DNA of 64,000 nucleotides from Acorus gramineus (Eukaryota > Streptophyta > Magnoliopsida > Acorales > Acoraceae): contig CM060847.1 in the NCBI GenBank assembly GCA_030737835.1, forward strand, positions 22,260,579-22,324,578. The letters are read 5' to 3'. Positions within the stretch are counted from its first letter, which is position 1. Each line of letters begins with the position of its first letter. This document shows positions 3,491 through 52,362 of the stretch, piece after piece. The translations under genes and the position numbers were made by a program. The notes beneath the pieces were generated by a model. That model searched no databases and was not told the origin of the DNA. It saw nothing but the letters and a program-made list of their open reading frames with translations.

Positions 3491-4225
3491 GGTCTGGATT
3501 ATAGGACAAACCCAAGAAGGAGCTAGTGGGGGTGGTGGCCCCCACTAGATTTATAAATAAAAAAATACAATGACAATCCCATCAATAACTTTGATAGCGG
3601 AAGAAAATTATAAAGAATAGAGACAATTATGTACCAAGTAAAGGGTTAAGGGTTTTAATCTTTTAAGTAGTTGGAATAGTTAAGGATCTAAAACATTAAA
3701 TGATCGATATGATATCAAGTGTCTTCATTGTGTTGGATAATGTTACGTACAACTCCTTTTTCAGCTCCAATTCTAGTTTAAAAATGTTTTAATTTTTTAA
3801 AAAACAATACTTTTATGAAAATTGAAGCATTTGTTTCAAGAAATTGCATTGATACATTTATAGAACATGTGAAAATTTTTTATCGATGCATATACCTCGT
3901 TAATATGAGTATAATTCGATAATTTTCTATCAACGCATATAAGACTGAATTAAAGCTGAAAAATGTGTTTAACGTATTGTGTTATTAAAATTTTAGAATT
4001 TTGTTACGTATTATCTTTTCCTGTTCTAATTCTAGTCACATATATTTCATTAGCATGATATGCTAACATTAATGAGGTATATGTCTCTTTAGAAATGTTT
4101 TACATTTTTTTAAAAGCATATACCTCATTAGATGGGGTATAATATTTTTTAAAAATTCAAAACACCTTTAGACTATAATTGGGATTGAAAAAAATATTGT
4201 ACATAATATTATCTTTTATGTTTAT
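3491..4225. repeat. AT-rich dispersed repeat (family A)
   Basis: The segment from about 3,736 begins GGATAATGTTACGTACAA. It contains GCATTGATACATTTATAGAA and CCTCGTTAATATGAGT-type motifs, and resembles 25,640-25,905 and in part 52,850-54,130. No coding content was seen. A short inverted motif, GTGGGGGTGGTGGCCCCCAC, lies at about 3,523. Confidence 0.4.
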
Positions 4226-9233: not shown

Positions 9234-10059
9234 CACAGCATGGCATCCTTCATGTCGTCGCCGTCGCCGTCGTCGTCGTCGCCGTCGCCATCGCCGTCGT
9301 CGTCGTCATCGTCACTGTCAACGTCGTCGCCGCCGCCGTGCCACCTGCTCGCGCTGCCCCTGCCGCTGTGTGTGCAGCCCTCCGCTGCTCGTGCCGCCCC
9401 TTGCAGCGCTGTGCGGCACCCTGCCCTACCGCGCGCCCTGCCTCACCCAGCCCTGTCGCGCGCCCTGCCCTACCGAGCGCCCTGTTGCGCCCTGCCCAGT
9501 CACGTGCCCTGCACCGCGCCCTGCCCTGTCGCGCGCCCTGCCGTGTCGTGCCCTGCTGTGCGACTGAACCTACCCCGATTACCCAGGATCTGTCGCGCTT
9601 GAGAAATCTGCCCGGGCACCGATCCGCTGATTCTGCCCAGATTTCCCGGGATCTGCTGGGACAGCTCGTGCTAGCCTGTATCGAGCGTTCTAGATCATCT
9701 CGCGCGCCCGACCCAGCACCCGACCCGAGTCCACCCAACATCCAACCCAGACCATGCCCAGCGACCCGAATCTGTGAACCCAGCCCAGCATTCGACCCGG
9801 ACCCAACCCTGATCCGCGAACCCGACCTGAGTCTGCCCTCAGGTCACCTCCGGCCGCCCTCCGGCTCCTCTGGCCGCCCTCTGCCGCCACCGGCCGCTCT
9901 CCGCAGCATCTGGCACCTCCTTGAGACTTCGAATCACTAAATTGGTCATAACTTCCTCTCCGGAAGTTCGATTAAGGTGATCCAGGAGTCCATTTTGCTC
10001 GATTTTTCATGCTCTACGTCCTCGTCTGCTTCTGATCCTCATCCGAGTGGTTCTGCACA
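9234..10059 (+). other. Copia leader with GC-rich low-complexity tracts
   Basis: Between the primer-binding site and gag there is a (GCC/GTC)n trinucleotide tract (about 9,255-9,345). A degenerate GCCCTGCC/GCGCGCCCTG repeat (9,410-9,560) and a CCCGACCC-rich block (9,700-9,830) follow. Long open frames exist on both strands because the composition avoids stops. Their Arg/Pro/Ala-rich products look artefactual. This block is far more GC-rich than the rest of the element. Confidence 0.6.
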
Positions 10060-11150
10060 ATGTCAGAAACCAACGATGACCATACTCTTCCGTTACCAAC
10101 TTCGAAGGTTTCTGATCTCCCTCAAGCTGCTGTGGTATCTGATCTCTCTCCGGCTGCTACTCTCTCTCAGATGGCATGTTTTGAGAATTTTTGGGACAAT
10201 CTTCCGAACTCGACGGATTTTCCTCTCAGTTCTGCCGACGATTGGTCACCCTGGCACATTACGGTATAGAGCTCTCGATCGTTGTCATCTTGTCGGTTAT
10301 ATTGATGGTTCTATTGTGCAACCGTCTGATCGAGACCCGACATATATCACCTGGCGCACACGGGACAGACGCGTACTCTCCTATTTGATCAACTCTGTTG
10401 ATCGTTCGATCCGTGCAGATCTCACTGGTTTTCCATCGTCCGCCGCACTATGGACTCATCTTTGTGATCGCTTTGTAGAGAAAAGCGGTGCTCGTGAATA
10501 TCAACTTCTGATCGACACTCAGACTGCTACTCAAGGTGATCTATCTGCCCAGACTCTATATGGCCGCATGAGGGCGAACTTCAGGGAGCTTCGTGCGCTT
10601 GAGCCTGGACCGATGGCCACTCCCGCTGAGCGAGAAGCTTTTCGTGATCGTCGCGAGTTGTATCAGTATCTGATGGCTCTTCGTCCAGAGTTTTCCGCAT
10701 TGGCCGGTCAACTCATACATCGGGATCCACTTCCTCGACTGGAATCCGCTGTCACTGAGGTTGTTGCTGAGGAGACTCGTCTTCGCACCATTGCATTGCG
10801 CCAGTCCACTCCATCTTCCACTTATGAGGGTGTCTTGGCAGCTACTCCTCCTACGACTCTCACAGGCTCCTCTCGAAAGAATACATTTGTGCTCACTGCA
10901 AGAGGACTGGACATCCGATCGCCGACTGTTGGAAGCTTCATCCTGAAAAGCGCTTTGGACCAAAAGGAAGAGGACAACATCGCCCCACTGCTCCCTATAC
11001 TTCTGTTTCTGTTGGGTCTTCCTACACAGATCAGCTTGGGCGTATCTGAGAGAGCCTCGATCAACTGATCATACAGCAACCTCCTCCTGGTTCTTCTACT
11101 CCCTCTGCTTTCTCTACTACTTCGGGTACTCCTGTTCATTGGATTTTTGA
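10060..11150 (+). pseudogene. gag: Copia gag (broken)
   Basis: The probable start is ATG 10,060 (MSETNDDHTLPLP). The frame shifts near 10,265 to continue with YIDGSIVQPSDRD and the UBN2/gag-type core WTHLCDRFVEKS. It shifts back before a CCHC zinc knuckle, C..C....H....C, at 10,888-10,929 (CAHCKRTGHPIADC). An in-frame TGA at 11,047-11,049 follows. The knuckle is intact. Capsid assembly is the normal family role, but this copy cannot make a full product. Confidence 0.8.
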
Positions 11151-14150
11151 TTCAGGTGCTTCACATCACATGACACCGGACAGTTCTGTCCTCACTGCAT
11201 GCTCACCGGCACCTTCACACCTGCCCACGATTCATACTGCAGATGGCTCCCCTTTAGTCATCACGCAGTGTGGATCGATCACTACCACCTCTGACCCTAC
11301 AGGACGCATTTCATTACCATTTGTTTTGCATGCCCCTGACCTTTGCATGAATCTTATATCTATTAGCCGATTGTGTGATTCTGGTCTCACTGTTACCTTT
11401 ACCACCTCTGGTTGTCTTGTGCAGGATCCACGATCAGGGCAGAGGATTGGCGTTGGACGTAGGCTTGGCGGACTTTATTACGTGGAGTATCTTCGTCTTC
11501 CCGTTCCTGATCCATCTGTCTTCTGTGGTAGCGTCACTTCTGATGTCGATTTGTGGCATCGAAGGTTAGGTCATGTGTCTGAGTCTCGTCTCAAAGAACT
11601 ATTTCAATCTGGTGTCTTAGGTCGTATTTCTTTTTCTCCACTTTCTGTTTGCGAGGGCTGTAAATTAGCCAAACCTGTGGCTACTCCTTTTAGTCCTAGT
11701 AATAATCAGTCCTCTAGTCCATTTGAGCTTGTTCATTCTGACATTTGGGGCCCATCTCATGTAACCTCAAAGAGTGGTTTCTTATTATATTAGTTTTATT
11801 GATGATTACTCTCGTTTTACTTGGATTTATTTATTGCGTCAACGTTCTGAGGTTCCCAAAATTTATGAGATTTTTACCAATATGATTTATACCCAATTTC
11901 AAGCTCGTATCAAAACTTTTAGGTCTGATTGTGCTCGAGAATACATCTCTTCTACGATGCGTTCTCTTCTTCATTCTCATGGCACCCTTTTTCAGCAATC
12001 ATGCCCCTACACTCATGAGCAAAATGGGGTTGCTGAACGTAAACATCGTCATATTCTTGAGACGACTCGTGCTCTCTTACTTTCCTCTTCAGTCCCCAGT
12101 ATGTTCTGGGCTGAAGCTGCTCTTCTCGTCCATCTTATCAATATCACCCCCTCCTCTGTCCTCTCCGGTATGACTCCTCATGAGCGTCTTTATTCTTCTC
12201 ACCCTGATTATAGCAGACTTCGCACATTTGGATGTACGTGTTTTGTGCTTCTCCCTCCTCATCAACGCACCAAGTTGGCCGCTCGGTCAGTAAAGTGTGT
12301 ATTCTTGGGGATTAGCTTCGAACACAAGGGTTATCGCTGCTATGATCCTGTTGGAGATCGATTTTGGATCGCTCGTCATGTGTCCTTTGTCGAGGATGTT
12401 CCCTATTTTTCTTCTTCACCACTCTATCCTCTCCTCCTGTGCATTCTCTCGTTCAGGTCTCTCCTGTGCATTCTCCTGTTCAGGTCTCTCCTACTACGTC
12501 TCTTACTTTTCTGGCCTATCTATTGCACTAGAGTTGTTCCTACCCCTGCGTCTCAACCTGACACTCCTGCAGATAACCCACCCTCTCCTCCCAGTGTGTC
12601 TTCTATTGCCCCTACTGAAGATACTTCCGCTGGTCCTCCGACTCCCACGCCTAACGCGCCTATTCTTGCCGTGGATTATCATCTTTTGCCTCATTATCCT
12701 CAGCGTGCACGTCACCCCCCTTCCCGATTCAGTTACGACTTGGGACCACCTGACCAGTTGCAAGTGGATTTTCAAGATCAAACATCGCCCTGATGGTTCC
12801 ATTGAACGCCATAAGGCTCGTCTTGTTGCCAGAGGTTTCACTCAGGAGTATGGGATTGACTATGAGGAGACTTTTGCTCCTGTTGCTCAGATGACTACTG
12901 TTCGCACCCTTCTCGCCGTTGCTGCTGTTTGTCGCTGATCTCTCTTTCAGATGGACGTGAAGAATGCTTTTCTTCATGGTGATTTATCTGAGGTTGTTTA
13001 TATGCAACCACCTCCAGGTCTCAGCACTCCTCCTCAGCATGTTTGTCGTCTTCGGCGGGCTATATACGGACTGAAACAAGCTCCTCGTGCCTGGTTTGAG
13101 CGTTTTCGCAGTGTTATTCTGACAGCTGGTTTTGTTGAGAGCCACCAGGACCACTCTATGTTTGTGTGATCCTCATCGCAGGGGCGGGTAATCCTTCTTC
13201 TGTATGTTGACGACATGATTATAACTGGCGATAACTCCGCTGGTATTACTCGGGTCAAGAATCACCTCAGTTGACAGTTTCAAATGAAAGATTTTGGTAC
13301 TCTTCGCTACTTCCTTGGTCTCGAAATTGCACAGAGTGATCGTGGGATTCTGCTTTCTCAACAAAAGTATACAGCTGACATTTTAGAGCGTGCTGCCCTC
13401 TCCGATACCCGCAGTGCGGATACTCCTCTTGAGCTTAATGTGAAGCTTCGTCCTACGGATGGTGAGCTCCTCTCAGATCCTACTCAATACAGACAGATCG
13501 TGGGTCAGCTTGTGTATCTCTGCATCACTAGACCTGACATTGCTCATGCCGTCAGTATTGTTAGTCAGTTTGTCTCGGCTCCTCGATCAGTGCATTATGG
13601 TGCTCTTATGCGAATTCTTAGATATTTGCGTGGTACTATCACTAGATCGATCTATATGTCATCCTCTTCGACTCTGGTTCTCAGGGCTTACACTGATGCT
13701 GATTGGGCTGGAGACCCAACGACTAGACGCTCCACCACTGGTTTCTGCATATTTCTCGGAGATTCTATCATCTCTTGGCGCAGCAAGAAACAGGAGGTTG
13801 TTTCTCTTTCCAGCACTGAGGCTGAGTATCGAGCCATGGCCATCACCACCAAGGAGATTGTTCATCTCAGACGTCTCTTGGTGGATCTAGGAGTTACTAT
13901 GACTGGTCCTACTCCTCTTCACTGTGATAATCAGTCTGCTATTCAGATTGCTAGCAATCCGGTCTTTCATGAGAGGACCAAACACATTGAGATCGATTGT
14001 CACTTCGTTCGTCAGCACTTTCTTGCAGAGACATTATCACTTCCGCATATCTCCTCTGCTGAGCAGCTTGCTGATTTCTTTACGAAGTCACATCCAGTTC
14101 CTCGATTTCAGTTTCTTCTTCGCAAACTCACTTTGTATGATCCACCGTGA
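11149..14150 (+). pseudogene. pol: Copia pol: protease, integrase, RT, RNase H (broken)
   Basis: The protease active site DSGASHHMT starts at 11,149. The integrase has an HHCC N-terminal finger (LWHRRLGH ... CEGCKLAK) and a catalytic core with DIWGPS, RSDCAREY and EQNGVAERKH. An extra T near 11,780 breaks the frame inside the integrase. The RT first block is missing: the sequence jumps from a linker to [23 protein letters not shown] is intact at 13,203-13,214. In-frame TGA codons occur near 12,938, 13,168 and 13,272. RNase H (TDADWAGD, SSTEAEYRA, HCDNQSAI) runs open to the stop at 14,148-14,150. All domains are recognisable, but the polyprotein is not translatable. Confidence 0.9.
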
Positions 14151-19439: not shown

Positions 19440-19900
19440 TCTTGGTAAGTTTTTCCAATTTTTGTTTAAAGAAAATGAAGAATTGATTATTCACCAATCT
19501 TTATATCAATTAGACATGTGACATATAGTTCATAAAAAACTTCATTGTAAAATAATCTAGATAAATTCACGCATTTCAATATTTTATCGAAGTGATGATC
19601 ATCTTGATAAAAACATACATTTCACGTTTATAATCATTGTATTATCATTTGTGCTTATTTTATTTACATACATTCTATATTGTGAAACAAGTTTTTTGTG
19701 ACCCTTTAATTACAATCCACAAGAAGTTACATGCGCGCACACATAAATTAATTTCTTATATACTTCTTTCTTATTTCCATCTCCCATCCTGTTTTACTAG
19801 TATAATATACAATTATTTTTCATTAAGATGAGTGCTAACATCTATATTTAATAATATAAGACATTGGAGCAAATTAATTATTTTTATTCTTCACTATGGA
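19440..19900. repeat. Dispersed repeat (family B), unoccupied copy
   Basis: It is co-linear with 26,235-26,436 plus 28,906-29,130. Shared stretches include ACGCATTTC.AATATTTTAT, CATTGTATTATCATTT and GACATTGGAGCAAATT. It contains a single TATCATTT where the other copy is split by the PMD-carrying MULE, so it is a natural empty site. Confidence 0.65.
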
Positions 19901-21092: not shown

Positions 21093-22325
21093 ACTATAAG
21101 TCCCTACTAAAATTGGAACAGACGTACGAGTCCTTAAAAATTAAGAAAAATCAATTATCATCTCTAAGTTAAATTTCTATCCAAACTTAATATAATATTC
21201 TCATAATATTCTATCACATATAATTGTATAGACATTGAAGTTCTTATAAACAGCCATAAAGATAAATTAGTCCCTATAAAAGACAAAATTGCCCCTGAAA
21301 GATTTTTACATTAAATTGTGTACACATTGCAATCCCTATAAACAATCATAAAGACAAATTAGTCCTTCCAAAAGATAAAATTACCCCTGAAAGATTATTA
21401 CATTTAATTGGATATACATTACATTCCTTATAAATAATCGTAAAGACAAATTAATCCCTCTAAAAGACAAAAATACCCCTGAACGATTTTTACATTTAAT
21501 TGTGTAGACATTGCAGTTATTATTTATTTATAAACAATCATAAAGACAAATAATATAATTTATTTATTTATTTTTTCATCTTTTATCCTATTGTTCATAC
21601 TCCACCTAAACAAGTAATGAATAATGCTATTTTTTTTTAAGGTTTTACTTGCTTTGAAATACCTATACATGATTTTTCACAAAATTTGTTTATTTACATT
21701 CTTAGTAGAGAGAATTTTAATAAACTCATGCCACTTTTTTTACTTCCCTACAAACAAAAAGGTAAAAAGATGCATTCTACTGGTTAAAATATTTTTTTTA
21801 CATCCAAATTGAGATCTTGAGGTGGAGTGTGAGCGATAGGATAGAATATGAAAAAATAAATAAATAATTATATTATTTGTTTTTATGATTGTTTATAAAA
21901 ACTGTAATGTCTACACAATTAAATGTAAAATTCTTTAGGGGTATTTATGTCTTTTACAGGAACCAATTTGTCTTTACGATTGTTTATAAGGACTGTAATG
22001 TCTATCCAATTAAATGTAAAAGTCTTTCAGGGGCAATTTTATCTTTTGCGGGAACTAATTTGTCTTTATGATCATTTATAGTCTCTGCAATATGTTCATA
22101 ACTTAATGTAAAAGTCTTTTAGGGGTAATTTTGTCTTTTCTAGGGACTAATTTGTCTTTATGACTGTTTATAAGAATTTTAATGTCTACACAATTATATG
22201 TGATGGAATATTCTAAGAATATTCCATTAAGTTTATATAGAAATTTAACTCAGGGATGATAATTGGGTTTTTCTGAGTTTTCAGGAACTCGTATGTCTAT
22301 CCTAATTTTAATAGGGACTTATATG
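21093..22325. mobile_element. Fold-back element with minisatellite arms
   Basis: The outer arms are inverted copies: 21,093 ACTATAAGTCCCTACTAAAA against 22,325 reading inward ATAAGTCCCTATTAAAATTA, continuing through CAATTATCATC and ATAATTGT.TAGACATT. Inside each arm lie about three tandem copies of a 90-bp unit (AAAGACAAATTAGTCC.., TACCCCTGAAAGATT..) at 21,228-21,530 and inverted at 21,895-22,190. The central loop is about 21,610-21,820. No protein is encoded. Confidence 0.7.
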
Positions 22326-26235: not shown

Positions 26236-26436
26236 AGTTGTAAAATAATATTAATAAAAACACGCATTTCTAATATTTTATGTGGAAAAGAAATGCCAAA
26301 TAAATGCTTATTCAATATGAAACTGTTAATGTAGCAGTTTTGTTTCATCATAATGTCATATCGCTCCTCCAACTTTTTTGCCATTTAGTTGATAAAACCA
26401 CACATTTCACATTTATAGTCATTGTATTATCATTTA

Positions 26437-26522
26437 GGGAAATTTTCAAAAAATACCCCTCTAAAAAAAAAATTCAAATCTGACCCCCGACCCAAAGTAT
26501 TAGCAAAACTGACCCTGGGGGT
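26437..26522. repeat. Left terminal inverted repeat of PMD MULE
   Basis: It pairs with 28,812-28,896. The match is near-perfect over CTGACCCCCGACCCAAAGTA and TTAGCAAAA.TGACC. Confidence 0.88.
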
Positions 26523-26716
26523 CACTTTTGACTGGTCAGCACCTAAAAAGCGTGCTGAACTGGCGGAAAAGTGATGTCACGTTTCCTTCAAAAAAGCGCC
26601 CAGGCACCTTGTGTGCCTGGGCGGGATACACTCTCCCTGTGGGAGACGTGATCCGCGAACACGTCTCCAGTGGAGATGTGATCAGCTAACATATCCGCTA
26701 ACGGGTAATAAGGTCC

Positions 26717-28363
26717 ATGCATGTTATCTACTTCTTCCGAGATTTTGATGAAGCTAGCAGTTATTCATGGGGATCAGCTGCATTGGCGCACCTCTATCGA
26801 GCCTTGTCTAGGGGATATATGCAGGTAACATGCTTTAACTTATTAAATTATTTGACTTTGTTTATATACATATAAGTTTTTATTATTCTCAGAGATATGG
26901 TCATGGGAGAGACAGCATGTTGGTAGACCTAGCTTACCGAGTATCGAATTTGTGTTTGGTGACAGACCATTAGGGGCTAGGTAGCTAATATTTAATGACC
27001 ACACTAATTATTACTATTCACATCTGATACATGGTAGCACTAATATTAATTTCATCTTAGATGGGGCCGTGAAGAAGCATTTCTATGAGTCACCATCGCA
27101 TGTGTTAATAAATTGTAAGGCACAACTGGATTATCAGCACGAGACACGGGTTTGTAGTTGTATATTTATAAAACATAATTGAATATCGTGATATGATATA
27201 ATCTAATAGCATGTTAACTATGTTTCTACAGATTTTATGGATGCCCTATGTGGATAGATATCAGAAGGTTCCACCAACATGCATGGCCGACTTCAATTTG
27301 TGGACGGTTAGGGTCCCTTTGATATGCTTTGACATTGTGGAAATGCATTGTCCTGACAGAGTTGCACGCCAGTTCGGTTATGAACAGACCATCCCAGTTG
27401 ACGTGGAACGAATCAATAGAGGTAACAGACGTGGTCGAAAGAAGGTCAATTGGGCTGTTTTGCATAAGGATTACATCGATCGATGGAATGCGCGACTTGA
27501 TCACATCCACATTTGTCCACAATCTATGACATCTTCGAGGTATATGGAGTGATATTGGGAGCGCACAGTCAGATATCTCACCCCACCTATCCCTCCATGT
27601 CCAGTTCCAATGCGGTATCATCCACGCGGATACGTCGCTGAGGTCATGGTGAGTTACATAGTACATGTGATATAGAATATAAATGTAATTACTTCATCGA
27701 TATTTTAATGAAGATTTAAAATAAACACAGGGCGCAGCCGTGATGAGTATCAATCAAGTATTAAATGAGGGATTGTCATTATATCCTGGATATGACAAGA
27801 TGGTTCGTATAGCAGCTGTGGCACGAGATCAGACAACTGCTCTACTTCAGCAGTTACCGTTATCTCAGATTCCCAGGTCTTTTGTTCCATCACCGGACTG
27901 GCATCCAGATCCACCTGTTGACGATAGAGGGGATGATGTGGATCAGAGTGAGTATCACACTGATCATCTTTTTACTATGAATGATTTTAACTTTCAGACA
28001 GCCGTGCGACTGGGAGATGATGCAAATGAACATCTAATATATAAAGCATATGACCTTTCTGATCATCCATTCCAAGGTCATGCTCAGTTACAAGAGGATC
28101 CTAAACAGAGACAAGAGGATCAAGAAGAGCCACATCACGATCACTTGGATACACGACCACTCCATGAGCAATTGCCTGTACCATCTTTTCCAATTTATTA
28201 CACTCGGACTCGTAGACGTGCCGGTATTGCTTCTACTGCACCCACACATTCAATTGGATCTGCGGGATTTACAACACCTGCTCAGCCGATAGGATCATCT
28301 TCAGCACCATCAGATATGCCTTCTTCTTCAGCACCTTCTGCACCTATTAAGAAAAAGAAATGA
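26717..28363 (+). pseudogene. Plant mobile domain (PMD/MAIN-like) gene, C-terminal half, broken
   Basis: Five exons with GT-AG introns: 26,717-26,824, 26,895-26,980, 27,061-27,149, 27,232-27,648 and 27,731-28,363. Readings typical of the PMD family: SYSWGSAALAHLYRAL, IWSWERQHVGRP, ILWMPYVDRYQKVP and WNARLDHI. The family's N-terminal half is missing. Exons 2 and 3 do not join in frame, requiring a one-base shift near 27,065. A TGA at 27,550-27,552 replaces the expected Trp of a YMEWYW motif. The last exon is open for 207 codons, is Gln/Asp-rich, and ends in a basic KKKK tail. PMD proteins occur both as silencing factors and as transposon cargo. This copy belongs to the second class and is probably non-functional. 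Confidence 0.7.
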
Positions 28364-28561
28364 TGGGGACGGTTTTTAGGATGACTGTATATATAATAAA
28401 CAACTTATTATAGTTATGACTATGTATAAAAGTGTTAAGACTTGATTTTTGTTTTATTTTTTACTTTAGGATTGTAGATTTTTCAGTAATTTTCTAAGTT
28501 TACAACACCAGCTTACAGGTTTTTTACAACACCAGCTTACAGGTTTTTTTTTGTGAATGGG

Positions 28562-28800
28562 GCAGGAGGAGACGTGATCACGGATCACGCCTCCGAGGGA
28601 AAACCCCCGCGGTGCGCATACCGCGTGCGCCAGGGCTGCAGAGGGAGATCACGTCTCCTTGGAGGCATGATCTATGACCACGCCTCCAAGGGAAAACCAC
28701 CACTGCGCATACCGCGCGCACCGGGCCGCAGACGGAGACGTGATTATGGATCACGTCTCCGTCGCGGCACCTTTGCTTCCCGTCTGCGCGCCAGCGTGGC
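28562..28800. repeat. GC-rich subterminal repeats of the PMD MULE
   Basis: About three degenerate units contain GAGACGTGAT..GGATCACG and GAAAACC.C..GCGCATACCG, in tandem with some inverted halves. A shorter related block, GGAGACGTGATCCGCGAACA, lies just inside the left end (about 26,642). Placement inside both ends suits transposase-binding or structural repeats (inference). Confidence 0.65.
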
Positions 28801-28811
28801 GCGCTGATCGG

Positions 28812-28896
28812 GGTCAAAGGTCACTTTTGCTAATACTTTGGGTCGGGGGTCAGATTTGAAATTTTTTTTTTAAGGGGTTATTTTCAAAATTTTCCC
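28812..28896. repeat. Right terminal inverted repeat of PMD MULE
   Basis: Reverse complement of 26,437-26,522 with few differences. It is followed at once by the second TATCATTTA. Confidence 0.88.
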
Positions 28897-28905
28897 TATC
28901 ATTTA

Positions 28906-34236: not shown

Positions 34237-35313
34237 GGGAGAATTGTTCAAATACTCCTTGACTAAGCGTTAAATTTTTTTTTTACCACTGGACTTTTTT
34301 TTATTTTTTATTTACCCGTGAAATCTGGTCCTTTTTTTTTTTTTTGCCCCTGAAATTTCATAATACCCGAACTATCCCTTACAGACAGAGTTACAGAAAT
34401 ACAGAAATATAATGTGAGACATACATAAATTATACACATAGTTCCAAATATTTAATAGTTATCTACAAAAATATTAAAGTACGCAAAGATGTTTATGCAC
34501 AAAATGGTCATATATACATTCTCAATGTCATAACATTATCATCTTTAAATGCATTCAGTGTACACAAAATTGTTATAGATACAATATCAACATTTCGTTA
34601 AAATAGATACATCAATTGTTTGAATTACGATGTTTTCTTCAAATCTTAATGATTAATTGTTATCTCCCCCTTAATCATCTTCATCTCCTCTTGGGTAAAA
34701 TGAAACAAGATTATCGAACTAGACATTCAAAATACTTCATAACGAAAAACGGGTTTTTCAAGCTATATCAAAAATACAACAATCAAACACTTAAATAAAT
34801 TTTTATTTAGTAATATGAACAAAATTAGTAATAGCATGAATCTGAACTGAAAATTTAACAATTGTAATATTTTAATAAAATTACTTCTTGATCCATATAC
34901 TTAACAATTACTAAAATTAACATTTATATAACAACTATAACAAAAACTACCACTGTGATGCCCAATGACATGATCTAGTATTTACATAATAGAAATGTAA
35001 TATTTTCTATTATTTTTATAACAATTACAACAGAAATTATAAAAAACTATAATTTTCACAACAAACATGTAATATCATACATAGAACTAAACTAAGGATA
35101 TGTAAATTATAGAAATGTAATAACTGCTTACAGAAATGTAATATTAATTTACAGATGGGGGTGGTTTAGGTATAACAAAAGAGGTGGCACAGGTCTTGGG
35201 GCAAAAAAAAAATAAGACCAGATTTCAGGGGTAAATAAATAAATAAATAAAAAGTCCGCAGGTAGAAAAAAAAAATTAGACCCTTGATCAAGGGGTATTT
35301 GAACAATTTCCTC
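34237..35313 (-). mobile_element. Non-autonomous MULE carrying a Ulp1-like exon, with 9-bp duplication
   Basis: Exact 9-bp duplications AAAATACAA lie at 34,228-34,236 and 35,314-35,322. Terminal inverted repeats of about 150 bp begin GGGAGAATTGTTCAAATACT (left) and GAGGAAATTGTTCAAATACC (right, reverse complement). The same family as 1-926, in the opposite orientation. Interior: a Ulp1-like C-terminal exon on the minus strand (34,646-34,757) and AT-rich filler. No transposase. Confidence 0.88.
34646..34757 (-). pseudogene. Ulp1-like protease C-terminal exon fragment (broken)
   Basis: The minus strand reads FFVMKYFECLVR followed by a stop. After a frame change it reads FHFTQEEMKMIKGE and TINH plus TAA. 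It corresponds residue by residue to the copy at 409-528. One stop and one frameshift make it inactive. Confidence 0.55.
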
Positions 35314-36947: not shown

Positions 36948-39900
36948 ATGGGAGACCACGGCAGCCACCGGTCGGACGAGCCACTCCTCTCCGGGGCGCC
37001 TCTCGGGGTCCTAGACATCGACGAGACGTCAAGGGAGGCCGAGGAGACGCTCGGGAGCGGTCCGGTCACGGTCAAGGTGTTCTGGCGGGTGGTGTGGTGG
37101 GAGTCGAAGAACCTATGGAGGCTCTCATGGGCGTCGATCGTCATCTCGGTCTTCAATTTCTTGCTAAGCTTGGCCACACAGATGTTCCTCGGCCACCTTG
37201 GCGCGCTAGAGCTCGCCGGAGCGTCCATCGCCAATGTTGGCATCCAGGGCCTCGCGTACGGTATAATGGTATGTTAAATGAACATTATTGATGTAATGTT
37301 TGTGGATCCCTAGTCTCAAAAATTTTCATATAATTTCAATATCTTCATACTCCACCTGATTTTGCACGTATTTTCATTAAAAGAATGAAACTCTTATCGA
37401 ATATCAGTCATACACGAATTTTATTATTACGTCCTGACACGCCCGGTCGCACAACTATGGCACAACCAACATCCAATTTTGCACGTATTTTCATTAGAAA
37501 AATGAAGTTTTTATGAAATATTTGTCATACACGAACTTTGTTACCAAATCCTGACCCGCCTGGTCACGCAGCTAGGGATGGCCACAGCCGTGCAAACGGT
37601 GTGCGGCCAGGCGTACGGCGCAAAGAAGTACCGCGCCATGGGCGTGGTGTGCCAGAAGGCGATGATCCTCCACCTATGCGCGGTGGTGCCCCTCGCGCTC
37701 CTCTACTGGTACTCGGGCCCGTTCCTGCGCGCGATCGGGCAGGCGGACGACATCGCCTCGTCGGGCCAATCCTACGCGCGGGGGCTCCTCCCGCAGCTCG
37801 TCGCGTTCGCGCTCTACCTCCCGATGCAGCGGTTCCTCCAGGCGCAGAACATCGTGAACCCGGTCGCCGCGCTGTCGGTCGCCGTGTTCGGGCTTCACGT
37901 GCTGATGACGTGGGCGGCGGTGTATAAGCTCCGGCTGGGGTTGGTGGGGGCGGCGCTCACGCTGAGCCTGTCGTGGTGGTTGCTGACGGTGGCGACGTGG
38001 GTTTATATTTTGCGGAGCGCGTCGTGCGGGGAGACGTGGACGGGGCTCTCACGCAAGGCGTTTAAGGGGCTCTGGCCATATTTCAAGCTCACTTTGGCGT
38101 CCGCGGTCATGCTTTGGTGAGTGTTTGGGTTTTGTATATGTGTCTGGATCCAGTCATGACTTGTTTTGGTCAATCCTATATTGAACCGTACAATCTATGA
38201 ATCGAACTGCACAGTCAATTGTTGAGTAAGTATTCACTCTTCTATTGGATATTGATGATGCTTAGAAATCCATATTTTATCTAATAGCTGACTAGATCCA
38301 ATAAGAGAGTGAAACATGTATCAAATAATTGGTTGTGCAGTTCGATTTATAGGCTGTATAGTTCGATTAATGGATTGTGTAGTTTAAATTAATCGAATCC
38401 AGTCCGGACCAATCCGGACTCTTTGTATATGTTATGATTATGATGAGATTGTGATTTATGTGAAGCTTGGAGGTTTGGTACAATCAGGGGCTTGTGCTCA
38501 TATCCGGACTGCTGTCGAACCCCGAAATCTCTCTCGATGCCATTTCTATATGGTAAGTTTTTTTTTTTTTTTTTTTTTTTTAGAAGATTCAATCTTTTTT
38601 ATTGTCATACATGCAGTTTTATATACTTCGTTAGTCTTATGATCTTATCTGCTCATTTTATTGAGATATTTACATTGTTAGAAAAAGAAAAATTCACATT
38701 TTATATAAATAATATCATTCAATTAATTAAAGTATATATTTCACATTTTATAAAAATATATATATTTTATTAAATGATGTATATAATTTCTAAAAAAAAA
38801 AAGGAAAACATGTATGATATGTGTTTTGGACTGTAAAATGGATTGCGTGTAACATTTTTCTTCTCAGAATGAGTGTTTCGCTTAGTTCCATTTGAGGTGT
38901 CCACCATCCGGACGCGGTCCCCCGGTTGAGTATGCACTTCATTAGTGGAGGATATGCTTGTTTAATTTTTTTTCATTTTTTATGAAAATATAAAAATAAG
39001 TATTTGTTTATCAAAACATATATTGAACTTTTCACAGTATTATGTTTTACTCGGCAAGCGTATACTTAAAAAAAAAAAAGAATTAAAACGGCTGTAGACA
39101 AGGCTGCAAATGGGATTAGACATATCAGTTTTCTTTCATAGTAATGCCAAATGCAGTTTGATTATATGTATGTACTTGATAATATGAATTTTTTAAAGAA
39201 ATTGAAAAAAAAATGCTCAAATAATTCCAATTTTTTTGAAAAAAATTATATTTAATCAAACAAGATATATAGATTCACAAAAAAAACAACTACAAAATTC
39301 TAACTTATAAAGCATTTGCTACCAATCGACACGTGTAATAATAAAACAATGATTTTGAAAGCATCATATTAACATTTGTAAAAAATTTAAAAATTGACTA
39401 GGTAGGAAGATTCAACACCACTCTAACAATTAAGGTCATTGGCTCAAATTAAGTCTTGTTTTCTAAGAACAATAAATCTGCTTCCCCTTCTAAAACTTGT
39501 TTACATATGTAATATGTTTAGTATAGCTAGTTGTTCATGATATCTACATATGGATAGTGGAAGCATTTCAAAAGTTTGGTGGAAAAATCTCTCTTATTTG
39601 ATGATGTTTAGCTCAAAATTTATGTAATATGAAGCTCTATGTATGTATCCTTTCTGACCAAACTATATATTATTGTTTCTCCATTGCTTTGGGCAGTGCC
39701 AACTACTTGAGTATGGACATGATGGTCATGCTAGGCATCAGCAATGCAGCGAGGTTTGTTTCTTTACATTTAATTGATTATTATGATATTCATTGGAGGT
39801 AGAATTGGAATTCTAATCTGAAAATGTCAGCATGCATGAGACTCTCATGCATTATATACATACAGCATCCTGAGAAGATATTCTCCCATGATAGTAATTA

Positions 39901-44302: not shown

Positions 44303-47300
44303 CTATTGCTTTGCTGAGTTGATGCTGGTCTTCCTTTTTCTGTCTTTATCGAATTTCGAACCTGTCTTGTGCCGCTTTGGCGTTCTCGACTCCATCAACT
44401 CTTGTAGTTTCTCCAAAGCTTCAAAATTTACCCCACACAAAAAGTTATGACAACAATAAACTTGAAGGATTCAGCTGGATAAGTGGTTGAAGAACAATTT
44501 ATCATGTTCGCTAAAAAAAGATTGGGATAAAACACAGACAATTATCTTAATTTGAATAGAAAATGGGTTCTTTTTTGTGGGGGTTCGCTTACTAGAATAC
44601 CATTGTGTTGCCCCACACATATGAATAGGAACACAACTAGTAGACTTTTTGTTCCACAAAATAGGATAACTTATCCTCAAATCTTATCCCCTTGCCAAAC
44701 AAGGCCAAAGTGCTGGAGTATAATTCAAAAGGACTATCTAAATGCATTGTAAATACTAGCACGGCAACAATCTTCATGCAACATAAGCCAGGACAGATCT
44801 AATTTAACATGCCAATATACGAGCATGGTTGTTTAGCTATTTCTCAAAAAATGAAACATACAACTCAAAATCTCAATCAATGAAAAGACAGAAGATAGAA
44901 CATGTTTACCAGAAGAATAAATAGGTCGAAGGCGTTCCACTGCATCAGCAGGTATGCTGTGAACACTGCAAGTGTCAATGCCAACCTTCTGTAAAAGCTT
45001 CTTGAAAGGTTTAACCTACAGAAAAAACAGCATCATCAAATCAAAGATGTGGTAAACTCAAATCAAGGTTCACTGTCTCTCTCCAATTTCATATAAAAGC
45101 AGATTGTTCATCCCAATTAGTCTTCAAAGGATCATTCCAGTACCGTTCTCAATGTTATTGTGCTCTGATAGTCTAATCTTTTCCATTTTCCAAAAATTGA
45201 TGAAACTATATTATCATATGCATTCTCTAGCTCGGCAGAGATGGATTAGGATAAAAAAATAATAATAACTTATCCACCCAGATCCACATTATGCCCATTG
45301 ACATTCAAAACCAAAAAGATACAGCTCCGCTCCTATGATATTTAAAATCTTGTAAATATCTATAAATTTTTCTATTTGCTCATATTTTTACCTATCTTAA
45401 ATTAACAAACCTTCCTAAATTTCCCACATCTTCACCTAACTCATGGGAAATCAAACACAGCAGGGAAACCACATGTTCATATTAACATGCATATCTGAAA
45501 AGGCATATGCTCTGCGTTGCTTATAGATAAGCATATTCAACAAAGCAACCTTGCATTAAATCAAATGACAAGGTAATGGCTTCTCTCAATGCTTATCATT
45601 ACATTAAACTGCTGTAGACATGAAAGGAGAGCCCAGGAATGAAATAATGGATCGAATGACAAGCAGGTCAAGAAGTTTTTCAATTTTAGATCGAATTGTA
45701 TTTAGTCAAACTAATAATGGGTCATAAAAATATCTAACTAACTGGAGCAAGGCATTCGACGTATTAAGGGCTAAATCTATGTTATGCGACACAAAGACAG
45801 TGTGCCCCATTATTTTCTTGCATCAGAATTATCCCCAATAAAAATTATATTTACCTGATCATTTCGAAGCAAGGTGAAGCAACGCCCACCCTGACCAGCC
45901 CTTGCAGTGCGACCAGCTCGATGAATATATTTCTTGATGAAAACTGGCATATCATAATTGACAACATTCCTCACCCCTTCAACATCCATCCCACGAGTCA
46001 TTGCATCTGTAGCAACAAGCACTTGTATTTTTCCTTCTCTAAATCCCTTCAACATCTTGCTGCAGAACAAATATATTTTCAGCAGTATACCATGCAACAA
46101 TTTATACAAAAGCACATAGTATACATGAGATTTGAAGGGTATAAACAAAGATATGAAATGATTTTAAAAAGAAAAGGATCAGAGCATTCTTATTAATACA
46201 AGATAGAAATAACACGCCTTGATATACAGATATGAGGGATCTCCAAAATTAAAAAAGAAAGCTAACAAAAAATCAAAAAGATAAAGAAACACAACCTCAG
46301 GATAGAAACACCCCACAGTGGCCCATACAAGGGAATAAAATGATTTATTCACATCTTCTGGTTCAAAAACATGTGTATATAAATTATGAAAAATGAAATG
46401 TTTAGCATGGAGATCTATTTATTTACTTTCCAAATAAAGCCCATGAAATGCAGAAAGCACAAAGTCTATCATTTACCTTCGAACTGATTGGGGCTGTCTA
46501 CCTGAATATTCACTTATTTTAAATGGCAACCCAAATAGATTCAACACGGTGCTGAGTCTATGAGTTGAGTCAACAGATGAGGTAAACACAATGCACTTCT
46601 CCCCTTGCAATCCTTCCAGAAGAGCAACCAAATACAGGGGTTTAAGCTTAGATTCACAAATCTGCACAAGAGGCCAAATAGTGTGAGTTATGAATCGCTC
46701 TAAAAAAATAACAGTCATGGCTAGTGAGAGGAACATTTTTTAAAGGAATTTTTTTAATTTAATTCATTCGAGTCTTCCGAAAACTGACATAGAAGTAAAT
46801 CAAATCAAAGTTTCAAAGTATTTGATGCCATCATTAGTCACGGAGGCTCTTAGCAAAATGTTTAAATGGAAGCTCACAAAGATATACCAATTTGTAGGAT
46901 TCAAGTTTCTCAGGCAGCTTATATCGTGTTTCACCAGTGGTCAAAAATAAAGGGTGATGCAGATCAAGTTGGAAGAGCTTGCTCGGATCCTGTGTCAGCG
47001 TGGCAGATACAATCATCTTCACGAGCCTTGGGAATACTTTATCCTTGAAACCCCTTTCTACACCACTGCAACGTATTGAGATTAAATATAATTAACATGA
47101 TTAAATGATATGTACAAAACAAAAAGGAGCATCATTGTCAATAGAAATTATGTCAAATTGGGGCTTCATGATAGCCACATCTTACTCGGTGCATTCAATA
47201 AATATAATAAAAAGTTGATTCACAGAGTTAATCAGAAGTTAATAAAACAATTACGAAATGAAAAGTGGTAAGAACAGAATGCAGTGGGAGCAACAGAGAA

Positions 47301-50300
47301 ATAGACAAACAAACAGAGAATTTGGAGCCATTGAAAGATTGAACTTAAATTAGGTTTGAGCAATGATGATATTGAAATGGAACTATGTTACACCAGCTTG
47401 GAATATGGAATATGTTATACCAGTTTGGAATATGGACAATGGGTAGGCAATTTTTAAAAAAATGTATTGTGGGATTTACCATCTCCTTATGGTAGTTAAG
47501 GAATCCAGCGGAGTAAGTACAGGAGCTTTTGCATATGCAATCATGCTTTGTGCATTTAAACTGGTTAGTCGAAGCACCATTGGCAACCAGGACTGATAAG
47601 CCTCCCTAAGCAATCGATCTGTCTCATCAACTACCTGAAATCATCACCAGTTAAGTAGTTGCAAAAAAATTACTGAAGCATGCAATGAGTATGCATAATG
47701 ATTTCAGGGCAATAGAGTAACATTATATCCTACCAACCAGGGACAACATTAAGCAGCCCCACTTCTCATAGAGTAAAAATTTGTAACACAAAAGCCATGC
47801 AAACATGATAATTGCATGGACAAAATTCAAATCATATTACAGACTGATGACTGTTCATATCTGGATATAACCCGAGCATTTACGTTCATGAAAATTCTAG
47901 ACAATTAACAGGTATATAAACGAAGTTCAACTAATTGGAAATTTGTGTGCATTGATAAGATGACATAATGACTTGTCAAATAAGAGCCCTGATGGACCAA
48001 ACTATTACAATAATGGTATACAAGCTTCAGATCAACTAAATCTTAACCATGAGAGCATATAAATGGCTAAAACATAAACTGTTCTACAGTATCAATAGCG
48101 TCAACAATATGGACACTTGAGGATGCTTCAAGTTTATGACCACAGGAAAATATAGGTTCCATCTGCCAATATGGAGATATTACTTTAAAAAAAAAATTAT
48201 TTTTATTTATTTATTATTTATTATTTATTATTTTGAATGGAAGTTGGGACTCCCCTGATTACATTACATTAAATAAAATGAAAGTCCCTCAAACAATGAA
48301 GATGAGGGATCTCCATACATTGAAACAAAGAAAAACAAAATAACAAAAAAAGGATAACAAACAAAAGAGGCTCCAATTACTGAGAATGACAAAGCACTGT
48401 ACACCCACTTCTAATCCTCTCCCATAATGCTAGGGAACTGGTCCAACCCCAAAATAAACTTCACTCCATCTTGCATTAAAGAGATGATGCTCACCCAAAT
48501 TTTCTCAATGTACACCATTTTACCCCTTGATGCTACACTCATTATGCATCAGCAATATACTCCTCCAGACCATGTGTGGGACAAAAGCTAGAAATTTAAC
48601 TTTTTCACTTTGATCCCCTTTTTCCCTCTTCTTCAAACCACTTCCACATTGTATCACCAACCTCAATGTCATCACGTGTATTCAAAGCTGATAACCATGT
48701 CCCCAATATGAAGATATTATTTATTAATTTATTTTGAATGAAAATTGGTACTCCCCTGATAAAACAAATCAAATAGAAGGTCATTCCAGTTTTACCTGGG
48801 AACCAGATAGCTACCAGGAATAGCTATCCTGTTTTGCACCAGGAATAGGATGACTATTCCTCTTTGCAACAGCACCACTTAACCTGAGCTGTAAGCATTG
48901 AATACCCAAGGATATGTTGTGTTTGTGATGCCCTACATGCTTATATTTGGCTCTTTTTGAAACAAACTACCATGAATAAGAGCACAATAGTTAGCCGCCA
49001 AACATGAAATTCCAACTGCTAATTCCAGCCCAATCATTTTATTTAAGACTTGGGATTTGAACCCCTTTCATTTCTTCAATCATTGGCATTAATGGGTACA
49101 GGAAAGAACAGTACACTAGCACTAAATGAGAGAATATTTACTTCCATATAACCTCTTTTTTTATATCTATTGATCATATAGAACGACTGTAAAAGATCTA
49201 ACAGTACTAATCAATTGGGTATGTAATGGTAATCATTATATAGAAATTAATATAAAGTAGTAGTATTTTTATTTTTATTTAGATTCAATTAAGAGTTCAA
49301 TGTCACCTCATCGCTGTTTACTGTATCTAGGTTGTTAGATTCCCATGACTTAAATTTCTTTCGAGTACTCTTCCTACAGGCTTCCAGTATTCATAAGGTT
49401 GTTGTATTTGTAAAACCCTATTTAAAGCAAGATGTTGGTGGTCTTCTGGACTAGCATATCATAACCCATGAAAAACATAAGATTTACTGCTATTATGCTG
49501 GAAAAGTAGCAACCAGGGAGTACACATAAGATAATGGATCTCAGCATTCCTGGGTCTCAATAACCATAAAATTGAAAAATAATATTAAATGCAACAATTA
49601 GATCATATTTTCATACAAGATGAAGACTAAAAATCTGATGCAAAAGAACAAGGAAAAAGAAATGATGGTAGCGGATCAATATAATGCCAAAGGAAAAGAG
49701 GCAAATACTCATTAAAGATAACATGACACACTTAAACTTGGAGGAGACGTTAAATTAACAAATCGTAATCAAATTTATCAAACTGAATGAACAGAAAACG
49801 AAATAGTTTCACAACAAAAAGAAACTACCATACTATACCACCTTACCAGATAACAAAGATGCTCGAGAGTAAAACCCTTAGTAGTATTAATATGATCCAT
49901 CAACCTCCCAGGCGTCGCCACTAGTATGTCCACAGAACTTTGAAACTCAAATGCCCTATCTTCCGGATCACTAGGCACACGCATTTCAAGATACGGCCTC
50001 TTAATCAGCTCCGAAATTTCATCTGCTATTGAAGACTGGCCGACTGCCAAACCTACACGCAATCCCACTGCAGGTGCAATAGCAGCAAAGACTTCCTTAA
50101 CCTGAACTGAAGTATCGTAAATATTTGAACAAATAGAAAAAGGATCCATTACCGCATCGAATAGGTAAAATTATGCAGAAATTTACATCGTTTAAAATGT
50201 TGTGGAATCACTTTACCCTTCTTTGTTTTCAATTTGCTGGTGTTGATCTTGCATATTATATATAGAAAGAACATCCAAATACCTAGGCTCATTTAAAGGA

Positions 50301-52362
50301 CAAATAAAACTAAACTAAATTATGAATACAATATTGGACTATCAAAATTTTCTGATTTTAGAACAACCACAACTGTCAGGGCGGTCACCTAGCCAACTTT
50401 GGACGCTCAAAATCTTCTGACTTTACAACAAAACAAAAGAACTATTGGACTCGTGTGAGCAAAGGAGAAAAATCTAATGATTGAAAACTGACCTGCAATG
50501 CCAGATCACGGGTGGGAAGAACCACTAGAGCACGGAGACATCTTATTTTACGAGTCGAGAGAGCTTGAACAATCGGCAACGCATAAGACAGAGTCTTCCC
50601 GCTTCCCGTAGGTGAGTTTATGCAGAGATCTCGTTCAAAACCTCCGGGACCAATTGTCTCTTGCCACACGGCTAATTGCACCGGGAAAAGCGAACTCACG
50701 CCCATCTTTTGCAGAGCCTCCTCTATTCTAAACAAAATAACCAGACAATGTACTCTTTCAGCTGAATGTCCATTCATAGAACAACAGGATAAAGCCACTC
50801 AGTGATATCATAAATTTTGCAATGAAAATAAAACACCTTTGTTCATGAGAGTCATTCTGATAGCAAAAAAGTTTGAACTAAGTAACCACTCATTAAATGG
50901 CTATAACAAAAATAACAGATCATATAAAATTTTATCTTTAGTTTAATAAAAACACACCCTATTAGAAAGCAAACACTACTCTGGACTCAAGAAGAGTCTA
51001 GGGGCGTAGCTAGGATTTTAGTTAAGCAGGGGCTTCTAGTTAAGGGGGGGTTCGAATGTACTATTGTCATTATTTCCTTATTTTATTCAATACTACTTTA
51101 CTTTATCTATTTCAAAACAATCAAAAATAGGTGTGCAACTTGGGCGGGATGAACCCAACCCAACCCGACATTTGAGCGGGTTTAGGTTGGGGTTTTAGCG
51201 TTCGGGTTTCTCTTGAACCCAAACCCAAGCAATCCGAACCTAATTGAGATTGGGTTTGGGTTGAGAATTCGGGTAACCCACACCCAACCCGAACTTGAGA
51301 TAGGGAGTGATACATTTATAAGTTCTAATTTTAATTTTTAATTTGTGAGATAAAATTTGAATTGCTGAATTTATCACTTTTATAATTTCATTTCTTTATT
51401 TTCTAAATAAAAAAGTTCTTCATTTTCATCTTTCTTATTTTTATTTGTGCGGAGCATTGACTCTTGCAGAGTTTTACTTGTTTAAAATGACACATTTTTT
51501 AACTCAAACCCAACCCAAGTTGAAGCAACCCCGAATCCAACTAGAACATGAACCAAACCCAATGGGTTGGGTTCAGGTTGAGATCCTGGGGTTTAAAAGT
51601 TGGATTGGGCGGGATTGTGTTTGGGTTGGGTTCCTCAAACTTTAGGTTGGGTTCGGGTTTACGAGTTGCACCCCTAAACGAAAACATGTAATCAATTTTT
51701 TAAAATATATATTGCTTGAAAAGATGATTAAGAAACGTCATTCAAATTAGATTTTATTTTATTTTTTTGTTGTGACTTGTCCGAGAAAGCTGAGTTCTAT
51801 AGGAGAAGAGATAAGTCTTTGTCCTTAGCTGAGAATTCTGAAACTTTGGACACTAGGAATTACATAGAGAATCTAGGAGATTAAAAAAACATAAAATATA
51901 AAAAAAAAACAGTTATGTATATAGTAACTAGGTATTAAACTACTACTAACATTATTCAACCACACCCTTTTTTTGTTAAAAAATTCAAGCCGGGGCTTGA
52001 GCCCCCCTTGCTTCTTATCGCCTCCGCCCCTTAAAGAACCTCCTCTCCTCTCACCTTTCCCTTCAAAACCTCCCTAATCTCACATAAAACCCCAACGAAA
52101 AACAGAGGTCTTGAATCCCTTCCGTTTGACCACCATCTCCCCAATTCGGAACAGATTCAAATAACCACCGATCCCCATCTAATCAACATTCCTCTATCAC
52201 CAACAACATCCATTCAATTTTGAGAGAGAGAGAGAGAGAGAGGGACCTGGGATCGAGAGATGGGAGGAGAGAGAGGGGGCATTCATCGAATTCGTCGACG
52301 TCGACGGGGCTCCTCATCCATGGCAGTATCGGCACGTTCTTCTTCCCCTTCGATTCCGCCAT
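44303..52362 (-). CDS. RH1: DEAD-box ATP-dependent RNA helicase 1-like (DDX51/Dbp6 type), 9 exons
   Basis: Exons, 5' to 3' on the minus strand: 52,362-52,247; 50,727-50,493; 50,101-49,847; 47,634-47,480; 47,065-46,888; 46,661-46,477; 46,059-45,855; 45,015-44,910; 44,418-44,303. They join in frame to 516 aa, close to plant RH1. Motifs: Walker A PTGSGKT (78-84), Ia PTRDLA (110-115), Ib TPGR (180-183), II DETD (205-208), III SAT (274-276), V ATDAMTRGMD (391-400), VI HRAGRTARAG (421-430). Motif II reads DETD rather than DEAD, and the usual Q-motif is weak (FPVQLAVWQ), both as expected for RH1. The basic Lys/Arg-rich tail fits a nucleolar protein. Yeast Dbp6 acts in 60S ribosome assembly; the same role here is inference. 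N-terminus MAESKGKKNVPILPWMRSPV matches the family start. Confidence 0.94.
48190..48780 (-). repeat. Probable LINE fragment in RH1 intron 3
   Basis: The minus strand gives short LINE-like pieces (GDTMWKWFEEE, WCTLRKF) separated by stops. The stretch is flanked by similar TTTATTTATTTATTATTT / TTATTTATTAATTTATTTTG tracts followed by TGAATG.AA.TTGG.ACTCCC. No complete domain. Confidence 0.3.
50998..52035. repeat. TIR element in RH1 intron 1, with a nested hAT-type MITE
   Basis: The outer ends TAGGGGCGTAGCTAGGATTT and, inverted, TAAGGGGCGGAGGCGATAAG are imperfect terminal repeats. Inside, 51,127-51,676 is a second element with ends TAGGTGTGCAACTTGGGCGG / TAGGGGTGCAACTCGTAAAC and repeated GGGTTGGGTT/AACCCAACCC motifs in both orientations. 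Neither encodes a protein. Confidence 0.5.
52223..52241. repeat. (GA)n microsatellite just inside RH1 intron 1
   Basis: Nine GA repeats; on the gene strand this is a CT tract starting 6 bp after the 5' splice site (CAG|GTCCCTCTCTCT). Confidence 0.8.

Follow-up and report, generated by a model that had tools for sequence, protein, structure and literature searches.

We conclude, with a probability of roughly 0.94, that the 2,460-bp element at 26437-28896 of the window (the whole 64,000-nucleotide stretch of Acorus gramineus DNA analyzed here, C1:22260579-22324578) is a non-autonomous, decayed copy of a TIR-type MULE that was internally deleted, inserted once, and segmentally duplicated. It has the terminal structure of a MULE, belongs to a family whose longer members keep what it has lost, sits in a repeat whose element-free relatives are still present, and shares its target-site duplication (TSD) with two further copies. 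It also carries subterminal GGAGACG-N13/14-CGTCTCC dyads, common to its own family and to a sister pair of elements (L055 and L056) with different cores and ends, which are new here.

Ends of the element and its empty sites

The element is bounded as follows:
26428..26436, target-site duplication, left copy, TATCATTTA, exact match to the right copy
26437..26514, plus strand, left terminal inverted repeat (TIR), from sequence alignment
28819..28896, minus strand, right terminal inverted repeat, from sequence alignment
28897..28905, target-site duplication, right copy, TATCATTTA, exact

The TIRs are 89.7% identical over a 78-nt alignment and are of the long kind that marks TIR-type MULEs. The initial annotation was correct in seeing inverted repeats here, but their length in alignment is 78 bp rather than about 85 bp. 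The exact 9-bp duplication that it reported, TATCATTTA on both sides, is the second mark of a TIR-type MULE, and its assignment to the MULEs holds on the strength of this TSD, the TIRs, and the MuDR-type transposase in longer relatives. A chance inverted repeat was considered as a reading of the ends and rejected.

A stretch without the element lies in the same window:
19440..19900, plus strand, related empty site, with TATCATTTG at about 19647

The flanks of the element align with this stretch. The left flank matches 19604-19650 with 91% identity over the 47 nt ending at the junction, with a further block at 84% over 56 nt, while the right flank matches with 76% identity over 66 nt. Joined, the two flanks score 238 against the empty site, compared with 158 or less in 100 mononucleotide shuffles. 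Over longer alignments (114/214 positions on the left, 107/174 on the right), strong similarity is confined to the junction region and to separate blocks. Given this modest long-range similarity, we regard the 19.4- to 19.9-kb stretch as a related rather than an identical site. The 9-mer placed earlier at about 19,647 does occur there in one copy only, but as TATCATTTG, which agrees with the TSD TATCATTTA in 8/9 bases.

Searching the genome (398.6 Mb in 137 contigs) with 19440-19900 returned, besides the query itself and the element's own flanks, two places: C1:22510013, which is 98% identical to the query, and C1:22211438, 87% identical over query positions 170-294, with the insertion point spanned. 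Since the former duplicates the window's empty site, the independent relatives number two, not three. All three element-free stretches read TATCATTTG where the element sits between two copies of TATCATTTA, and each holds TATCATTT once, so that the 9-mer is single, not already doubled, where the element is absent. The proposal of an empty site in the same window is thus confirmed, and two further genomic places agree with it.

A family of longer elements and the internal deletion

The 85-base end has 38 matches in the genome, the window's own two included. Among 20 further stretches fetched, 15 had both ends, 1.2 to 6.4 kb apart, and five had one end only (L029, L030, L032, L033, and L036). An exact TSD of 8 to 9 bp flanks 12 of the 15 two-ended copies when the ends are allowed to shift by up to 4; L027 has a 9-bp TSD with one mismatch, and L024 and L034 have none that is convincing. 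The longer members (4.8 to 6.4 kb) encode a MuDR-type transposase followed by an intron-bearing PMD (plant mobile domain) gene on the same strand. The MULE domain and DBD_Tnp_Mut (PF10551 and PF03108) were matched in L023 (2.8e-11 and 1.2e-8) and L027 (4e-8 and 1.5e-12), and a transposase was found by alignment over >60% of the reference in L024, L025, L026, L031, and L032 as well. Positions 1-137 of the PMD were matched in L024 (4.9e-36). PMD exons 4/5 are present in 11 of the 15 two-ended copies and in one-ended L032; among the two-ended copies, they were not found in L028, L037, L038, and L040. The longer copies are all damaged to some degree, and of the copies read, L021 alone has both exons 4 and 5 free of stops and frame changes, and it too is a deletion copy.

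In alignments with L023, L024, and L027, the window copy matches the outer part on each side but has no counterpart of the middle, and the PMD is colinear to the element end; this identifies the window copy as a deletion derivative. The join is located as follows:
26691..26700, junction of the internal deletion (26682-26700 in the alignments to L023, L024, and L027); the match with the left part of L023 runs as far as 26691, and the next match starts at 26700, equivalent to L023 element position 3697

For L025 and L026, the join is slightly shifted relative to that in the L023, L024, and L027 alignments. Relative to L023, an internal deletion of about 3.45 kb took away the transposase together with the first portion of the PMD; what remains is the two ends, the subterminal palindromes, and the C-terminal PMD exons. 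The deletion probably preceded insertion, the alternative being that it took place after insertion and before segmental duplication. The transposases of MULEs work on the element ends and are able to mobilize deletion derivatives in trans; that of a relative may have moved the window element in this way. The element would then have inserted once into a local repeat, duplicating TATCATTTA. Segmental duplication of the region would have multiplied it, and its frame decayed.

The window copy could also be read as a Pack-MULE, in which a non-autonomous element would have picked up part of a host PMD (silencing) gene on its own. A passage of PMC4583175 describes Pack-MULEs as common in plants, and the window copy both lacks the transposase region, judged by alignment to the longer copies, and holds a gene fragment with introns. 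However, longer members of the family have a transposase and the same PMD, colinear to the element end, and the PMD tail is common to a second PMD-MULE family. The PMD thus belongs to the longer members rather than being newly captured host cargo, and we give the Pack-MULE reading very little credence. Nor does the view of the element as a lone gene capture survive, as larger members carry both the transposase and the missing PMD parts.

A broken PMD gene

The coding remnants and an adjoining repeat are as follows:
26700..26824, plus strand, remnant of PMD exon 1, with a frame change at about 26725-26735
26893..26980, plus strand, PMD exon 2, identified by its position and by copies in other elements
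27061..27149, plus strand, PMD exon 3, with a frame change near its start
27232..27648, plus strand, PMD exon 4, matching PF10536 positions 240-331, with an in-frame stop at 27550-27552
27731..28363, plus strand, last exon, with 210 open codons, acidic with a basic end
28499..28549, plus strand, exact 24-bp tandem duplication beyond the PMD stop, in 3' non-coding sequence

We compared the exon pieces with Pfam by hmmscan, with a gathering cutoff of 34.9 bits for PF10536. The exon 4 piece matches positions 240-331 of 347 (8.7e-22, 78.2 bits), well above the cutoff, so the profile search supports the PMD identification made from the letters alone. The exon 1 piece matches positions 133-163 (1e-6, 28.7 bits), by itself under the cutoff. 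Together, these matches agree with the description of the fragment as the C-terminal half of a PMD. Taken one by one, the pieces of exons 2, 3, and 5 had no match in Pfam, but other copies of the family contain their sequences in the same order. Exons have 44 to 47% GC and introns 19 to 28%. For exon 4, there was no PDB match at E values up to 10, and a search of viral contigs was likewise without a match.

The gene is broken in the window copy by frame changes in exons 1 and 3 and by the stop in exon 4, an exon that is stop-free in the near-identical copy L021. The exon 1 remnant is missing about 39 nt before the intron that are present in L024 (our own count from a comparison of translations), and its alignment to L022 has 42 gap columns before the intron. 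PMD-like sequence, TGNKVHACYLLL, lies just upstream of the ATG first taken as the start, in another frame; because the PMD continues upstream in this way, that ATG is not the gene start. Of the five exons originally proposed, the first does not begin the gene, and the frame is broken.

The open last exon had raised the possibility of a retained short product. If it were kept for such a function, for example as a decoy of host PMD complexes, then its 210 open codons would be accounted for, and only 1/5,000 Markov sequences of that composition is open. However, the exon is present in 13/13 copies read and free of stops and frame changes in 4/13 (the window copy, L021, and L022, which represent one insertion, and L024), and a counterpart of its tail exists in a second family (32% identity over 215 residues, E value of 8e-20 in a single-subject comparison). 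That the exon is open in the window copy therefore calls for no particular explanation. All three lesions of the PMD body lie upstream of exon 5, an arrangement expected by chance in ~15% of cases if lesions were evenly spread (our own estimate, from 234/444 codons), and the pooled pN/pS of exon 5 (0.75, bootstrap interval of 0.57 to 1.11) is much like that of the transposase (0.78). Moreover, the exon itself ends early: it stops after KKKK, 7 residues short of where L024 and L025 end, a stop common to L021. With this early end, the frame changes, and the exon 4 stop, a retained product is not borne out, and we think its maintenance highly improbable.

We asked whether the PMD shows selection across the family. 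Leaving out the near-duplicates L021, L026, and L039, pooled pN/pS was 0.79 for exon 4 and 0.62 for the N-terminal part of the PMD (four copies), and the bootstrap intervals of these two values, like those for exon 5 and the transposase, include 1. Over nine independent insertions, nonsynonymous and synonymous changes in the PMD numbered 12:10 when shared and 81:25 when singletons (one-sided P = 0.037), compared with 6:1 and 31:9 for exon 4 alone (P = 0.84) and 4:4 and 74:20 for the transposase (P = 0.086). Taken together, these values are weak evidence for selection on the family PMD.

A probable single insertion, multiplied by segmental duplication

The TSD TATCATTTA also flanks two other copies, L021 (C1:22517147-22519619) and L022 (contig C98). 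Their 830-bp flanks differ from those of the window by 2.4% and 0.5% (C1 copy) and by 2.5% and 3.9% (C98 copy), and flank identity across the three places is 96.1 to 99.5%; a separate alignment of the right flank of L022 has 8 mismatches and 150 gap columns. The elements themselves differ from the window element at 22/2,459 aligned bases (C1 copy) and at 128/2,401, with 119 gaps (L022). Given the same TSD, the similar flanks, and the repetition nearby of both the empty site and a MATE transporter exon, the three places would most simply represent a single insertion that was multiplied along with the DNA around it. L022 may have undergone some gene conversion or decayed faster: among 110 L022-only differences in the 3' part, 37 look L022 derived, 35 look derived in the window copy and L021, and 38 have both states in other copies. 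Further groups with the same TSD (L025/L026, L035/L039, and L037/L038) show that duplication is common in this family.

The MATE exon (37506-38120 of the window) has two 99% copies, at C1:22534031 and C1:22604904, and the neighborhood thus holds a gene-containing segmental duplication. Elsewhere in the window, we observed the coding region of a Copia-type LTR retrotransposon (9941-14150, matching gag, integrase, and reverse transcriptase), minus-strand pieces of DEAD-box helicase (45810-50798), a long inverted repeat pair (1-890 and 34275-35160, 79 to 93% alike in blocks and about 34 kb apart), and a large inverted repeat at 21131-22286 (360-nt arms that are 85% alike, with 436 nt between them), overlapped by 92-nt direct repeats.

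Sister elements with their own PMD

A PMD profile search of the genome gave at least 163 matches (117 of 1,380 candidates scored), among them two PMD-MULE loci, L055 and L056, with inverted repeats of their own. These two are related to each other, with ends 74 to 79% alike and PMDs 90% alike (L042 versus L045). Their PMD pieces are 57 to 73% identical to those of the window family, and the L056 transposase is 63% identical to that of L023 over 331 residues. Between the ends of the window family and those of L055/L056, we found only one borderline match (L024 versus L056, 70% over 101 nt, E value of 0.002). A transposase search with L056 gave at least 92 matches (87 of 1,062 candidates scored), and the best eight matches listed, L056 included, are 99 to 100% identical and have no internal stop. 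With such near-identical open copies, the sister family looks recently active. PMD loci of the L048/L049 type, 38 to 39% identical to L024, may represent another class.

Subterminal palindromes

When the window was scanned for matches to a dyad consensus of 27 bp, five sites were found:
26642..26668, subterminal palindrome, 23/24 to consensus
26672..26698, degenerate subterminal palindrome, 17/24, a score of at least 17 being reached in 7/300 random sequences
28568..28594, subterminal palindrome, 23/24
28661..28687, subterminal palindrome, 20/24
28734..28760, subterminal palindrome, 23/24

All five lie inside the element, the rest of the window scored below 16, and the best score in 300 Markov sequences of element length was 19. 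A generic dyad scan counted 9 in the window element, 9 in L055, 10 in L056, 4 in L023, and 1 in L040, against a background of 1.3 on average and 4 at most in 35 window pieces. The dyads of L055 and L056 have the outer arms of the window family around AT-rich cores, with two core types mixed within single arrays.

Across 18 elements (67.9 kb), several of which are duplicates of each other, GGAGACG-(8 to 18)-CGTCTCC with at most one mismatch occurs 49 times in 17 elements (with one L034 site counted double), compared with 3 times in the 135 kb around them; exact sites number 20, in 10/18 elements, and 3 outside. In three arm-shuffled controls, we counted 1 to 2 sites with one mismatch allowed; allowing two gave 2, 5, and 7, versus 77 real sites. 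All 49 one-mismatch sites lie within 345 bp of an element end, and in 44 of them the spacing is 13 or 14. The dyads are kept in L028, L037, and L038, all without a PMD; L040 has no site at up to one mismatch. Since dyads persist in elements without the genes, they would, if they act, act in cis.

Genome-wide, the pattern GGAGACGN{10,16}CGTCTCC has 807 sites, versus 4 for the reversed control. We examined the first 50, which form 14 clusters on C1 up to 22,289,338. Among the matches listed for that part of C1, sites within 8 kb bracket 6/6 sister-family transposases and 4/6 PMD places, three of these four sharing elements with the transposases, while C1:18573656 and C1:22051998 are PMD places without sites. 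None of the three other MULE-domain matches in the same region, a small comparison group, is bracketed, and neither are random places except for 0.2%. For 5 of the 14 clusters, the matches listed include neither a PMD nor a transposase. Sites whose core does not begin with G and end with C number 43 (control, 4), of which 34 are 27 nt long and 17 lie within 1.5 kb of a match to the 85-base end. Comparing the 27 distinct sites of 27 nt, we found positions 9, 11, and 19, all left free by the pattern, to be invariant and positions 17 and 18 to be nearly so (26/27 and 24/27); positions 8 (T) and 20 (A), where the pattern is free only in part, are likewise kept, and the central five bases vary, as they would in a dyad operator. 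Because sites that share descent are non-independent, we take this as a pattern of constraint rather than as a formal test.

Such fixed arms and free center fit a dimeric protein, and the dyads look like candidate binding sites for one, possibly encoded by the elements. The transposase would be the simplest candidate partner and the PMD protein a bolder one. As a whole, we put forward only tentatively, and consider it rather unlikely, the idea that the dyads, which lie about 100 to 345 bp from the ends and in the window family have the form GGAGACGTG(A/T)T-N5-A(T/A)CACGTCTCC, are a dedicated cis-target for an element-encoded dimer and, in its boldest form, that the PMD protein binds them and protects the element against host silencing. 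Perfect dyads could also fold, and PMC6446971 associates siRNAs with long MULE TIRs, so the palindromes might instead be RNA hairpins or siRNA sources made by repeat expansion. Given the operator-like conservation of the arm positions and the narrow range of spacing, and with the caveat that sites of common descent are non-independent, we judge this to be unlikely too.

Relation to known systems

PMD-MULEs are already known, and the window element, a new and defective example, is itself ordinary. PMC5418596 (Ikeda et al. 2017) credits earlier work on a rice MULE with the first description of the PMD. According to excerpts of that paper, PMD proteins act in transposon silencing in Arabidopsis, and an anti-silencing role has been speculated for MULE-borne PMDs; the grass and Amborella MULEs with captured PMD-C genes reported there have a PMD beside a MULE transposase, as do the longer members here. 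Table 1 of PMC6446971 lists the PMD in members of several plant MULE groups. As described in parts of that paper, groups 46 to 50 (MuDR-9_OS, MULE-Monocots, MDR, MUDRAVI2, and MUDR) are PMD-bearing MULEs of angiosperms that resemble the window family in their MuDR-type transposase, TIRs of tens to hundreds of base pairs, PMD as an extra frame, and, where stated, 9-bp TSD. The window copy differs from them in having lost the transposase and half of the PMD, and its family has the PMD in sense whereas several of those groups have it in antisense.

The dyads invite comparison with VANDAL21, a MULE with an extra protein, VANC, and repeated family-specific non-coding motifs; VANC21 binds YAGTATTAY (excerpts of PMC5735166). 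In contrast, the motif here is a subterminal palindrome whose arms are kept across two element groups. En/Spm (CACTA) elements have several short subterminal TnpA sites, recognized by a protein that the element encodes and that also acts against methylation, but they belong to a different superfamily, and the dyad here is 27 to 28 bp. The PMD is not known to be related to VANC. Among titles and abstract openings, and in portions of PMC3276141 and PMC8616336, we found no description of the dyad; the CCGTCTCC strings in PMC3276141 are primers.

The excerpts of PMC5418596 offer no target sequence for MULE-borne PMDs. A conserved dyad tied to PMD-MULEs makes the anti-silencing idea directly testable. 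If the idea is true in its boldest form, host MAIN/MAIL-type factors and element PMDs would be opposing users of one domain.
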